Assembly: GCA_021806235.1 (NCBI GenBank)
Contig: JAJZXU010000010.1
Coordinates: forward strand, 1 to 64,000
Source: Thermoplasmata archaeon
Lineage (GTDB): Archaea; Thermoplasmatota; Thermoplasmata; Thermoplasmatales; Thermoplasmataceae
Direction: 5' to 3'
DNA length: 64,000 bases
Part shown: positions 18,441-22,804 of the stretch, piece after piece
Numbering within the stretch: the stretch's first letter is position 1
How the letters are laid out: each line of letters starts with the position of its first letter
Made by a program: the position numbers and the translations under genes
Notes under the pieces: model-generated
Seen by the model: only the letters and a program-made list of their open reading frames with translations
Database searches by the model: none
Told to the model about the DNA's origin: nothing

Positions 18441-19499
18441 TTATTGCCGTTCAAGTTCAGAAATGGATTCGTTTAATATATTATTGATAATGTCCTTTGT
18501 TCCATATGTACCTCCTGATTCAACCGGTATAATATTTTTATTAAAAATAGCATTTATTGAATTGTTTATAATACTCGATTCAGTATTAAAACCTATATAA
18601 TCAAGCATCATTGATGCCGATAAAATCGATGCAATAGGGTTTGCTATATTCTTTCCTGCTATATCCGGAGCACTGCCATGAACCGGCTCAAACATTGATG
18701 TTTTATCCCCAATATTTCCACTTGGAGAATAACCCAATCCACCTGTAAGTGCCGATACCATATCAGATAAAATATCGCCATAAAGGTTGGGTGCTATAAT
18801 ATTTTCATATTTTCCAGGATTTAATATTAAATTGTATGCCAGGGCATCGGCATATTCAAATTTTATATTTTTATTTTCTTTTACTGCCATTTCTCTCCAG
18901 AAATTATACATATCTACTGCATTTGCCTTGTCTGTAACCGTTGTATTACTGCCTTTTATTAAACTAAAAGTTTTTTTAAAGAATCTTTTTAGATTTTTTT
19001 CAGATAATATTCCTAAATTGTAATAAATATTATCGCTGGAATTACCGGCAATCTGTATACTGTAATCATATATGTTATTCATATTTTCGAATTTTCTACT
19101 TTCATTTATATTGCCTGAAATTTCTGTATAAAAATCCTCCATATTTTCCCTAAAAATTGTAATGTCTATATTGTTTTTTGATATTTTATTAAATGATTTT
19201 GCTGGCCTTATATTCAGATACAGATACAATTCCTTTCTTAACCTTAATATTACATTCCTTTCCATGATTCCTGGTTTAATATCAGGTGAACCAATGGCAC
19301 CGAATAATATTGATTTATAATCTTTTAATTCTGTTATTTCACTGTCTGTTACTGTTTTACCTGTTTTTTTATATCTTTCTGATGAAATGTCATAATAATA
19401 AAAATTTAATGAAGAATTTATATTCTTTAGCATACTGCAAACTTCAGGAACTATTTCCCTGCCTATTCCATCCCCGGGAATCACTGCTATATCTACCAT
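18441..19499 (-). CDS. leuB: 3-isopropylmalate dehydrogenase
   Basis: IPGDGIGREIVPE, NLYGDILSDMVSALTGGLGYSPSGNIG, FEPVHGSAPDIAGK; in leu cluster. Confidence 0.93.
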   Translation of the reverse strand: MVDIAVIPGDGIGREIVPEVCSMLKNINSSLNFYYYDISSERYKKTGKTVTDSEITELKDYKSILFGAIGSPDIKPGIMERNVILRLRKELYLYLNIRPAKSFNKISKNNIDITIFRENMEDFYTEISGNINESRKFENMNNIYDYSIQIAGNSSDNIYYNLGILSEKNLKRFFKKTFSLIKGSNTTVTDKANAVDMYNFWREMAVKENKNIKFEYADALAYNLILNPGKYENIIAPNLYGDILSDMVSALTGGLGYSPSGNIGDKTSMFEPVHGSAPDIAGKNIANPIASILSASMMLDYIGFNTESSIINNSINAIFNKNIIPVESGGTYGTKDIINNILNESISELERQ

Positions 19500-19975
19500 T
19501 TCTCGGACACCACATAGTTTATTAATCCACCCTTTTCTATTATTTTTCCTAAGAATTCAGGATATCTGTTAAAATGTTCTATGCCTGAACCATATGTTAT
19601 TGTGCTTTTATCAAAGTCTATTTTTATATTCCCAAAGTTTTCTGCATTTATCTTTGCTTCTATTAGCGGAATTCCATTGTTTATACCATTTCTGAAAAAT
19701 ATTCTCGCAAAACTTTCTGCTATTATGCATGAAACACCTAAACCCTTTATTGTTATAACTGCATGCTCCCTGCTTGAACCTGAGCCAAAGTTTTTGCCTG
19801 CAACTATAATATCACCTTTCTTTATTGTTTTTGCAAGGTCAGGATATTCATTTTCCATAAAATGCGGTGCTAATTTCTCAGGATCGGATGTGTTTAAATA
19901 TTTTGCCGGTATAATCTGATCTGTATCTACATTATCTCCTAAAACTATTATTCTACCCTCTATCTTATTTAACAT
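19493..19975 (-). CDS. leuD: 3-isopropylmalate dehydratase small subunit
   Basis: GDNVDTDQIIPAKYL, GKNFGSGSSREHA. Confidence 0.95.
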   Translation of the reverse strand: MLNKIEGRIIVLGDNVDTDQIIPAKYLNTSDPEKLAPHFMENEYPDLAKTIKKGDIIVAGKNFGSGSSREHAVITIKGLGVSCIIAESFARIFFRNGINNGIPLIEAKINAENFGNIKIDFDKSTITYGSGIEHFNRYPEFLGKIIEKGGLINYVVSEKW

Positions 19976-21217
19976 TTATATCTCCTCCGGTGTACCAATT
20001 CTTCCTAATATTGAAGACGCTGCAACAATTTTTGGATTTGCCAGGTATACTTTCGATGATTTATCTCCCATTCTACCTATAAAATTCCTGTTTGTAGATG
20101 ATACACATATTTCATCAGGGCCTAAAACACCCATATAACCACCTAAGCATGCCCCGCATGTTGTACCTGAAAAATAACCTCCTGCCTCAACTATTATGTC
20201 TATTAAACCCTCCTTTAAGGCCTGATTGTAAACTTCCTGGCTGGCAGGTACAACCATTAGCCTTACATTTTTATTTATTTTATGATTTTTCAGGATCAGT
20301 GCTGCCTTTCTTATGTCCTCTATTCTTCCATTGGTGCATGAACCTATATATGCCTGATCTATTTTTGTATCTACCTCAGATATCAATTTAACATTATCTG
20401 GAGAATTTGGAATTGCAATTGAATTTTCGATCTCATCCATATTTATATTAAAGATCTTTTCGAAATTTGCATCATCATCAGATTTAATAATTCTGTAATC
20501 CCCAATAACCCTGTTGTTAAGATATTCAATTGTCTTTTCATCTGTATCAAAAAATGAACACTTTGCACCTGCCTCAGTTGTCATGTTTGCCATTGTCATT
20601 CTTTCATTTATATCTATATATTTTATATCGCCTGTAAATTCCATGCATTTATATGCTGCACCGTCATTTTTTATTTTAGATAATATATGCAGTATTATAT
20701 CCTTGCCCTCTATCCCCTCTTTAGGTTTTCCTATCAGGTTTATTTTATACGTTTCCGGTACCTTAAACCACATTTTACCGGTAGCAAATATTACACCGGC
20801 TTCCGTACTTCCAATTCCAAGCGAGATTGCGGATAATGCACCGTATGTATTTGTATGGGAATCGGCACCTGCAATTAATCTTCCTGGGGCAGCATATCCC
20901 TTCTCCATCATAACCTGATGGCATACGCCGCCCTTACCAATATCATAAAAATTCGTATTATATTTTAATGCAAAGTCCTTTACTGTTTTATACTGTATTG
21001 CAGAATTAACATCCTTTGGTGGCACAAAGTGATCCGGTATTATTATTATTTTATCACTTTTTGCTTCCATATTTAACTTATTGAAAGCATCCACCGCTAT
21101 TGGCCCTGTTATGTCATTAACCATAACATAATCAACATTTGCCATAACATAATCACCGGCTTTTACATCGTTTCCGGATTTTTCCGAAAATATTTTTTCA
21201 ACTGCTGTTTTACTCAT
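19976..21217 (-). CDS. leuC: 3-isopropylmalate dehydratase large subunit
   Basis: GADSHTNTYGALSA, IGSCTNGRIEDIR, CGACLGGYMG. Confidence 0.95.
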   Translation of the reverse strand: MSKTAVEKIFSEKSGNDVKAGDYVMANVDYVMVNDITGPIAVDAFNKLNMEAKSDKIIIIPDHFVPPKDVNSAIQYKTVKDFALKYNTNFYDIGKGGVCHQVMMEKGYAAPGRLIAGADSHTNTYGALSAISLGIGSTEAGVIFATGKMWFKVPETYKINLIGKPKEGIEGKDIILHILSKIKNDGAAYKCMEFTGDIKYIDINERMTMANMTTEAGAKCSFFDTDEKTIEYLNNRVIGDYRIIKSDDDANFEKIFNINMDEIENSIAIPNSPDNVKLISEVDTKIDQAYIGSCTNGRIEDIRKAALILKNHKINKNVRLMVVPASQEVYNQALKEGLIDIIVEAGGYFSGTTCGACLGGYMGVLGPDEICVSSTNRNFIGRMGDKSSKVYLANPKIVAASSILGRIGTPEEI

Positions 21218-22382
21218 TTTTACTCACCTCTAATAAAAAATCCTCATTTATTGATTTGTTATACATTTTTATTTTATTTAAAATATCGTTTATTTCATCA
21301 TCTGTTTTGTTTATTCCATTATTTTCTAATATATATTTTATTGCTGCCTTTCCAGAATGTTTTCCAATTACTATTTTTCTTTTTATGTTGAATAATTCTG
21401 GATTTATTGCCTCGTATGTCCTTGAATTGTTTATTATTCCCTGAACGTGTATTCCGGCCTCGTGGGCAAATGCATTTTCTCCTATTATTGCCTTGTTTTT
21501 CTGTGGTGTTATATTGCTTTCAGATGAAATGTATTTTGATATTTCATATAATTTTTCCATTTTTATACCGGTATATGAATTTAGGAATCCATAAACTGAT
21601 GATACAACCTCCTCTAAGGCTGCATTGCCTGACCTCTCTCCAATGCCATTAACCGTTACCTGTACCTCATCTGCACCTGCAATTAATCCTGATAATGTAT
21701 TCGCTGTTGCCAGTCCAAAGTCATTGTGGCAATGAACGCTTATATTGTTTTTTGTAAATTCCCTTATCTTTTTTATAAAATAATACATTGATATTGGGTT
21801 CATTATTCCTATAGTATCCGGTATGTTTATTGTTTCAACCTTATTATTTATCCCCGATATAATTTCCCTTAAAAAATTAATATCGGTTCTTGTTGCATCC
21901 TCTGGTGAAAATATTACTTTTAATCCATGATCCTTTGCATAATCTATTGAGTCTATTATCCTTTTACTAACTTCCTCCCGGGTCATTTTTAACTTATATT
22001 CCATATGTATGTCGGAGGTTGCTATAAATAAATGGATTGTGTTTGAATTTGAATCTATTACTTTGTTTATATCATTAATATTGCATCTTGATAATGAACA
22101 TACATTATCTATTATATTATTAAGGCCTTTTATTGTCTCAAATTCCTCATCTGAAACTGCAGGAAAACCTGCTTCTATCATGTCAACACCTAAATCATAT
22201 AATTTTAATGCAATATTTGTTTTTGTATTTTCATTAAAATACACACCAGGAGATTGCTCTCCATCCCTTAATGTTGTATCAAAGATTTTTATTCTCCTTT
22301 TTTCGGTATTTATACCTAATCTACTGTACTCTCCCATATTAAAAAAATCGCCATAGTCCCTACTATCAAACACACACATCAT
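21210..22382 (-). CDS. leuA: 2-isopropylmalate synthase family (short form, 390 aa)
   Basis: FDTTLRDGEQSPGV, VHCHNDFGLATANTLSG, NAFAHEAGIHVQG; strong SD GGAGGTAAT before ATG. Confidence 0.9.
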   Translation of the reverse strand: MMCVFDSRDYGDFFNMGEYSRLGINTEKRRIKIFDTTLRDGEQSPGVYFNENTKTNIALKLYDLGVDMIEAGFPAVSDEEFETIKGLNNIIDNVCSLSRCNINDINKVIDSNSNTIHLFIATSDIHMEYKLKMTREEVSKRIIDSIDYAKDHGLKVIFSPEDATRTDINFLREIISGINNKVETINIPDTIGIMNPISMYYFIKKIREFTKNNISVHCHNDFGLATANTLSGLIAGADEVQVTVNGIGERSGNAALEEVVSSVYGFLNSYTGIKMEKLYEISKYISSESNITPQKNKAIIGENAFAHEAGIHVQGIINNSRTYEAINPELFNIKRKIVIGKHSGKAAIKYILENNGINKTDDEINDILNKIKMYNKSINEDFLLEVSKNE

Positions 22383-22413
22383 ATTACCTCCAAAAATTTT
22401 TTTTTTAAATGAA

Positions 22414-22464
22414 GATAATATTTACTGAAGCAACAAAAAGAATAATTGCTGAGTAAATATTATC
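22414..22464. promoter_or_regulatory. long imperfect hairpin/palindrome upstream of leuA
   Basis: GATAATATTTACT/AGTAAATATTATC perfect 13-bp arms plus inner AGCAA/TTGCT, 12-nt loop. Confidence 0.85.
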
Positions 22465-22472
22465 GTATTCAT
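22422..22472 (-). CDS. candidate leuA leader peptide MNTIIFTQQLFFLLLQ
   Basis: Minus strand ATG AAT ACG ATA ATA TTT ACT CAG CAA TTA TTC TTT TTG TTG CTT CAG TAA, coincident with hairpin, ending ~40 nt before leuA. Confidence 0.6.
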   Translation of the reverse strand: MNTIIFTQQLFFLLLQ

Positions 22473-22493
22473 TGTAATCTGTATGCACAACAT

Positions 22494-22505
22494 ATTATAT
22501 AAATA
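22494..22505 (-). promoter_or_regulatory. putative TATA box of leu operon
   Basis: ATTTATATAATA on minus strand, ~22-33 nt upstream of leader ORF ATG. Confidence 0.5.
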
Positions 22506-22731
22506 TTTCCATTTAAAAATGGTGATTATACGTGGTTGAATGAATAATTATTTTTTATACAGTTTCTTGCTGAAAATAGTCATACCTGAAAGGCCTAAGG
22601 CCATTGTGTAGTTATTACTTATAACGTTGGTAGTCCATAATGTAAATAGAAACTCATGAATACTATGACAGTATCATAATAATTGGAATTGGGTAATTTA
22701 TGATATTATTTATAAAATAAATGGTTTAATA

Positions 22732-22804
22732 TGCCGTGAGCCGGGATTGAACCAGCGACCTCCAGATCTTCAGTCTGGCGCTCTCCCAACTGAGCTATCA
22801 CGGC
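22732..22804 (-). tRNA. tRNA-Phe (anticodon GAA)
   Basis: Reverse complement GCCGTGATAGCTCAGTTGGGAGAGCGCCAGACTGAAGATCTGGAGGTCGCTGGTTCAATCCCGGCTCACGGCA. Confidence 0.96.

Follow-up and report, generated by a model that had tools for sequence, protein, structure and literature searches.

The leucine biosynthesis operon described here lies within a 64,000-nt stretch of Thermoplasmata DNA (hereafter the window) and is preceded by a short, Leu-rich open reading frame (ORF) embedded in a long hairpin. This raises the question of whether translation of the leader controls leuA and, if so, on which element the control acts. Ribosome-sensing attenuation by leader peptides is a textbook bacterial mechanism. 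The original prediction, which was made from the window alone, proposed such a switch for leuA and allowed translational control or an operator palindrome as alternatives. Comparison with related genomes supported a leader-peptide switch; leucine-dependent stalling itself is still an inference. The reading that we consider probable is that the leu operon is subject to ribosome-position-dependent translational attenuation acting through the leuA Shine-Dalgarno (SD) sequence. Coordinates of the relevant features are given in Table 1.

Table 1. Features of the leuA leader region and the leu operon, in positions of the window.
Feature	Position	Strand	Remarks
TATA box TTTATATA	22496..22503	-	-31 to -24 from the leader ATG
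Leader ORF MNTIIFTQQLFFLLLQ	22422..22472	-	C-terminal QL[FY]FLLL[EQD] and stop shared by 10 genus genomes; four further genera of the family also have related Leu-rich leaders
Segment A	22452..22471	-	5' arm of the hairpin (anti-sequestor), codons 1-7
Segment B	22411..22426	-	Covers the hairpin's 3' arm (22426-22414) and, overlapping it, the anti-SD UAUUAUCUUC (22420-22411); holds the leader stop
Spacer A10-U5	22392..22406	-	Separates segment B from the SD; relatives have U4-U7; not preceded by a terminator hairpin
Segment C	22382..22391	-	leuA SD GGAGGTAAT and first base of the ATG; predicted partner of B when A is occupied
leuA	21210..22382	-	2-isopropylmalate synthase-like, 390 aa, without the C-terminal LeuA_dimer allosteric domain (PF08502)
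leuC, leuD, leuB	18441..21217	-	Downstream of leuA; adjacent genes overlap or abut at their start and stop codons

A conserved leader ORF upstream of leuA

The 16-codon ORF MNTIIFTQQLFFLLLQ was found on the minus strand exactly where it had been placed (ATG at 22472, TAA ending at 22422), with the four Leu codons out of sixteen that had been counted (TTA, TTG, TTG and CTT), and it is separated from leuA by 39 nt. Comparison of oriented upstream regions showed that leuA is present in all ten genomes of the genus, with the leader ORF upstream in each. Besides the type found in the window, the genus variants were MDSIMFIEQLFFLLLE, MNSIMFIEQLFFLLLE, MNSITFIRQLYFLLLE and MNSVTFIRQLYFLLLD, each closed by a stop; their N-terminal half is variable and QL[FY]FLLL[EQD], followed by the stop, is constant. 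Within the genus the frame carried no indels, Leu10 showed synonymous changes only (TTA/TTG), and synonymous changes were also seen at Phe6 and Gln9. Divergent leaders preceded leuA in other genera of the family (MNGMVFTQLLFLLAE, MFNIVSNNANVLFLGLHSGH, MFGKVSNAATMLFFLGLQSGH, MLTLVLHEVLLLNESTLSPVVL and VLTLLVPEFLLLGQSTLSPVVL, the last beginning at GTG). A lack of leader codon conservation in relatives, or a hairpin kept with its ORF broken, would have refuted the original prediction. Neither was observed: the upstream alignment showed the codons to be conserved in the genus, with divergent versions in four more genera of its family, and frame and stop were retained in every genome read, even where TAA had changed to TGA. 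TTG was frequent among the Leu codons of the family's leaders, yet it accounts for only ∼11% of Leu codons in 39 ORFs of the window (TTA, 41%); tRNA sensitivity or stem constraints may be the cause.

A covariance model of the element returned exactly one match per genome in 10 of 10 genus genomes (E values 1e-17 to 1e-21) and one further match in a second genus (E 1e-11), with match coordinates corresponding to the leuA upstream regions. The occurrence of a single match per genus genome, at that position, indicates that the leader element is more than chance. No convincing extra copies at other genes were recovered in a family-wide search with this model, and the paralogous isopropylmalate/citramalate/homocitrate synthase genes of the same genomes had no comparable leader.

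Promoter and operon context

The TATA-like box that had been reported before the leader ATG was confirmed, and a box resembling TTTATATA lies 29-31 nt 5' of the leader ATG in every genus genome checked, as it does in two additional genera. Archaeal TATA boxes are located ∼26 nt upstream of the transcription start site (TSS), and this spacing predicts initiation of transcription no more than a few nt from the leader ATG. The leader transcript is thus probably leaderless or nearly so, and leuA, whose SD was located as originally described, is probably an SD-led second cistron behind it. The same spacing argues against a TSS downstream of 22472, which would also have refuted the original prediction; these statements rest on promoter sequence, without TSS mapping.

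Since the ends of neighbouring genes overlap or abut, leuA, leuC, leuD and leuB probably form one operon. The LeuA_dimer domain (PF08502) was absent from the LeuA of the genus and from that of a genome in another genus, G054 (window 21210-22382; L031; L138), and was present in the full-length enzyme of one genome of family f22. Control of leuA at the level of expression would make sense for an enzyme lacking its leucine-feedback domain. We regard this loss as context and not as proof, since leaders also occur where the domain exists. A tRNA-Phe(GAA) gene (22732-22804, minus strand) lies just 5' of the leu operon on the same strand, and an identical tRNA sequence is found ahead of leuA in two other genomes (G001/G002; L007, L008).

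Two mutually exclusive helices around the leuA SD

The hairpin described in the original prediction stood with respect to its 13-bp outer stem, a perfect inverted repeat (22464-22452/22426-22414); the inner helix, which had been given as 5 bp with a 12-nt loop, proved to be 6 bp with a 10-nt loop. In the folded leader AUGAA pairs with UUCAU, so that the leader start codon is partly paired. The minimum free energy of the leader was -20.3 kcal/mol, compared with -8.7 ± 2.5 kcal/mol for 200 dinucleotide shuffles (z = -4.7, 0/200). The A10-U5 tract was present exactly where it had been reported. A scan for transcription terminators found none, the hairpin standing apart from the variable U4-U7 tract, and a search of Rfam gave no match to a cis-regulatory family, only the neighbouring tRNA exceeding the gathering score.

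The original prediction did not include a complementarity between the leuA SD, GGAGGUAAUA, and the 3' arm of the hairpin, UAUUAUCUUC. This gives segment B two possible partners, A (the 5' half of the leader) and C (the SD), and the A:B and B:C helices are mutually exclusive. In an eight-sequence alignment (seven from the genus, one from a second genus), 91.8% of A:B cells were paired, compared with 34-50% when the helix was slid, and four pairs had changed on both sides, which supplies the compensatory changes that had been proposed as a check. For B:C, nine of ten pairs formed in all eight sequences. Columns 13/55/89 read A/U/A in seven sequences and G/C/G in G054, indicating that segment B changed jointly with both of its partners. 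G-U pairs were frequent, which points to an RNA element rather than a DNA operator.

Ribosome position and access to the SD

The consequences of ribosome position were modelled for the window's family with folding confined to RNA 3' of the ribosome footprint. In five genera of the family, that of the window included, a ribosome in the leader body kept the leuA SD closed, at an opening cost of ∼7-14 kcal/mol. In these genera a ribosome reaching the end of the Leu cluster, or a position shortly beyond it, opened the SD, which was also open with the ribosome at the stop. In each of 13 sequences the closed SD was held more tightly than when the upstream part was shuffled; between 0 and 18 of 300 shuffles matched it per sequence, with 0/300 in five of the 13. 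Judged by these opening positions, the Leu cluster lies near the switch point in each genus, despite the differences in sequence. In free leader RNA the SD was mostly open (1-5 kcal/mol), and since naked RNA has an open SD, repression would depend on frequent translation of the leader.

For the clade of the window and a downstream footprint of 17 nt, stalling at Leu 10, 13 or 14 did not open the SD and stalling at Leu 15 opened it only partly; with 20-23 nt of downstream clearance, stalls at the last two or three Leu codons opened it. The modelled effect of a stalled ribosome on the SD depends on the assumed footprint and on whether pairing across the ribosome is allowed, and in this clade folding by itself is compatible with a stall at Leu either opening or closing it.

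Leu-rich leaders across the class

Leaders were sought throughout the class using a strict test, namely an upstream ORF (uORF) with at least three Leu in its last nine residues and a stop 15-70 nt before leuA. This test was passed by 63 of 89 leuA loci sampled across the class, compared with 4.2% of dinucleotide-shuffled upstream regions and 5/53 control loci (2/24 trpE and 3/29 hisG). When any other residue was substituted for Leu, at most five leuA loci passed (the runner-up, Ser, with five). Several of the 26 failures were wrong automatic start picks in family f6, where a Leu-rich frame is visible, and several others were leaders with fewer terminal Leu. The counts are not independent, as the conserved loci are related by descent. 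The Leu-rich uORFs of the class end ∼20-60 nt before leuA; examples from other families in the class-wide sample are MATKSNALLILPLGLLLLA, MIFAQHIGLLLIE, MRHTSIISLLLLLH, MSIIIVDGHGLLRA and MYCDLGRGPLLLLREL. Their C-terminal peptides differ widely among families, with Leu richness retained, and one leader of family f9 was identical to a Candidatus Methanomethylophilaceae leader (L055).

No convincing Trp- or His-rich leaders were found at trpE and hisG of the class. Among the matches listed, no convincing Leu leader preceded leuA of Nitrososphaeria, haloarchaea, Methanobacteriales, Bathyarchaeota and others. A Diapherotrites bin (L075) carries a Leu-rich uORF, MTAARFLGLKSLICLLALLVLVLVLLG, ∼90 nt before leuA, which is possibly a chance ORF or a membrane peptide. 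Separately, Leu/Val/Ile-rich uORFs were observed ahead of ilvB (acetolactate synthase) in f22 (L209, L210), f6 (L206) and f12 (L225-L227), for example MSNDSTGEKRSMLLSLLTVVVVL, MSNNNTGEMTSILLPLLKVIVVL and one ending in AALLHFIIA, with a strong hairpin following the uORF in f22. Only 4/29 ilvB loci passed the strict test and the numbers are small; the ilvB leaders suggest a branched-chain leader regulon.

Different predicted switches in other families

The helices that surround the SD are not the same in all families. In f9, the SD of the leader is immediately preceded by ACCGUC, whose pairing partner GACGGU stands just 5' of the leuA SD; an overlapping GGUUUG pairs with CAAACC inside leuA, which closes the leuA SD and start codon. 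The first of these helices was perfect in 22 of 25 sequences (chance 0.16 each) and occurred as covarying types (ACCGUC/GACGGU, ACCACC/GGUGGU, ACCAUC/GAUGGU and ACCGUU/AACGGU). The SD-closing helix was kept through GGUUUG/CAAGCC and GGCUUG/CAAGUC, and in L201 through GGUUCG with CGAACC. As GGU is common to both, the two are mutually exclusive. On this covariation, the predicted f9 element is a two-state switch around the leuA SD that is different from that of the window's family and equally covarying.

SD-closing pairings were also found by alifold in f6 and f22, and in f6, as in f9, the closing helix joins the SD region to the leuA coding sequence. In f22 (L143, L149, L158, L167, L173, L177) a long helix surrounds the whole leader ORF, formed by AUGAGC of the start region with GCUCAU after the stop and by an upstream GAGGU with ACCUU, the latter being alternatively able to pair with the leuA SD. 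When pairing across the ribosome was allowed in f9, a ribosome at the leader start site closed the SD most, typically by 2.5-4 kcal/mol more than in free or Leu-stalled RNA, with little or no effect in two of nine sequences; in f22 SD folding changed little with ribosome position. In leaders of 13-14 codons, a ribosome at most of the terminal Leu positions leaves no room for a following ribosome. Selection of the fold by occupancy of the start site would give the switch a sensible sign, in that a stall would mean less initiation, an open SD and more LeuA, but this is inference only.

A model for control of the leu operon and its alternatives

We propose that the short leader ORF, which is probably leaderless and has its Leu codons clustered at the end, would be translated first, and that the position of its ribosome would select between A:B, with the SD free, and B:C, with the SD hidden. 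With ample leucine, a steady stream of ribosomes starting and completing the leader would cover A, and B would close the SD. A shortage of leucyl-tRNA would hold a ribosome on the last Leu codons beside B and so block further initiation; both effects would shift the balance towards an open SD, allowing leuA to be translated. Comparison of sequences demonstrates the parts on which this model is built: the conserved ORF, the C-terminal Leu codons, the TATA spacing, the exclusive covarying helices and SD sequestration beyond that of shuffles. In the absence of expression, TSS or ribosome-profiling data, it is inferred that the leader is translated, that a lack of leucine stalls its ribosome, and that such a stall increases leuA expression and does not decrease it. 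A wider claim, to which we give somewhat less than even credence, is that this archaeal class controls leuA by terminator-free Leu-codon leaders in which start-site occupancy selects the fold, and that it represents the first archaeal leader-peptide attenuation by an amino acid, with family-specific helices and parallel ilvB leaders.

The strongest competing explanation is attenuation of transcription, in which release of the leader ribosome would allow A:B to form and RNA polymerase to terminate, intrinsically or by FttA/aCPSF1, at the U-tract before the SD, and a Leu stall would block A:B and permit read-through. Its regulatory sign is straightforward, both the genus and some other families have a T-tract just 5' of the SD, and in archaea U-runs alone suffice for termination. 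However, no hairpin directly precedes the tract, and the complementarity of B to the SD and its covariation are left unexplained. This explanation is made weaker by the shrinkage of the tract to only four U in G003 and genus g2 and by the f9 and f6 closing helix, which reaches into the leuA coding sequence; we consider it unlikely, without dismissing it. Of the options in the original prediction, translational control is accordingly favoured, there being no terminator and the 3' arm of the hairpin being complementary to the leuA SD.

Alternatively, the leader-peptide switch may be real and have the opposite sign or a different signal, with a stall before the end closing the SD, so that translating the leader would repress leuA, or with LFFLLL[EQD] and its stop arresting the ribosome on a metabolite in the manner of TnaC or SpeFL. 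Thermodynamics alone would agree with this, as folding closes the SD until the ribosome reaches the last Leu codon and opens it at the stop, and the last residues are conserved as amino acids. Stopping leucine synthesis during leucine shortage makes little biological sense, however, and C-termini that vary widely among families while keeping their Leu richness point to codons, and not to one arrest peptide. We rate this possibility a little below transcription attenuation.

The perfect 13-bp inverted repeat could also be a DNA operator for a transcription factor, with the ORF incidental. This option of the original prediction is now disfavoured and appears very improbable: the many conserved G-U pairs are not expected of a DNA palindrome, the predicted TSS is at the repeat or upstream of it, the SD takes part in three-way covariation, frame, stop and Leu codons are conserved, and the Leu-rich ORF persists in other families where the partner segments change. 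Lastly, short ORFs are common and reinitiation by leader ORFs has been described in bacteria (PMC4833913), but a chance ORF in a constrained 5' UTR, or a leader merely boosting leuA by reinitiation, is scarcely credible given the Leu-specific enrichment over many families relative to shuffles and trpE/hisG controls, and gaps of 20-60 nt that are long for direct reinitiation.

Comparison with known systems

In the open-access literature searched, no archaeal amino-acid leader-peptide attenuator was found, which does not prove absence. Upstream small ORFs translated in archaeal 5' UTRs have been detected by Ribo-seq in Methanosarcina mazei (PMC11456600), and the passages of that report consulted here describe no amino-acid attenuator, nor does its main text mention attenuation. 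If the proposed control of leuA is correct, the coupling of ribosome position to mRNA fold serves amino-acid control in archaea too, and does so class-wide; control would apparently act on the SD rather than on a terminator, and a leaderless start is predicted for the leaders of the window's clade. It would also offer a possible explanation of how the pathway is regulated where the leuA product has lost its leucine-feedback domain.

Three of the general features of a leader-peptide attenuator are present, namely an upstream ORF enriched in codons for the product, conservation of the cognate residue and exclusive RNA structures. Bacterial attenuators (E. coli leuL/trpL; the S. aureus ilv leader, PMC5794164; Corynebacterium ilvBNC, PMC11857589) likewise place a leader ORF with product codons and exclusive helices before a biosynthetic operon. 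In contrast to these, the system described here is archaeal, its leader is probably leaderless, and the proposed switch targets the SD in front of the first enzyme gene; a terminator hairpin and U-run of the classical trp/leu type was not found at the leuA leader. The LEU element of actinobacteria (PMC1262725) also has a Leu-codon leader before leuA and helices involving the leuA SD, with no obvious terminator. Its Leu codons pair with the SD in a pseudoknot, whereas the archaeal anti-SD lies across and beyond the leader stop (f1, with its A:B and B:C helices, and f22) or in leuA (f6, f9); pairing of the Leu run with the SD is not met here, and no pseudoknot is needed (none was searched for). 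The LEU element is thus similar in gene and logic, but not in architecture. In translational attenuation of erm genes (ErmCL; PMC10219788), as proposed here, ribosome position on a leader ORF switches helices that hide or expose a downstream SD, and sequestration of the SD in one of two alternative folds is a feature shared by the leuA leader; the signal here would presumably be leucyl-tRNA supply rather than an antibiotic, and the stall sites would be at the very end of the ORF. By analogy, the closest functional likeness of the leuA leader appears to be to the bacterial leader-peptide attenuators, and most of all to the translational attenuators.
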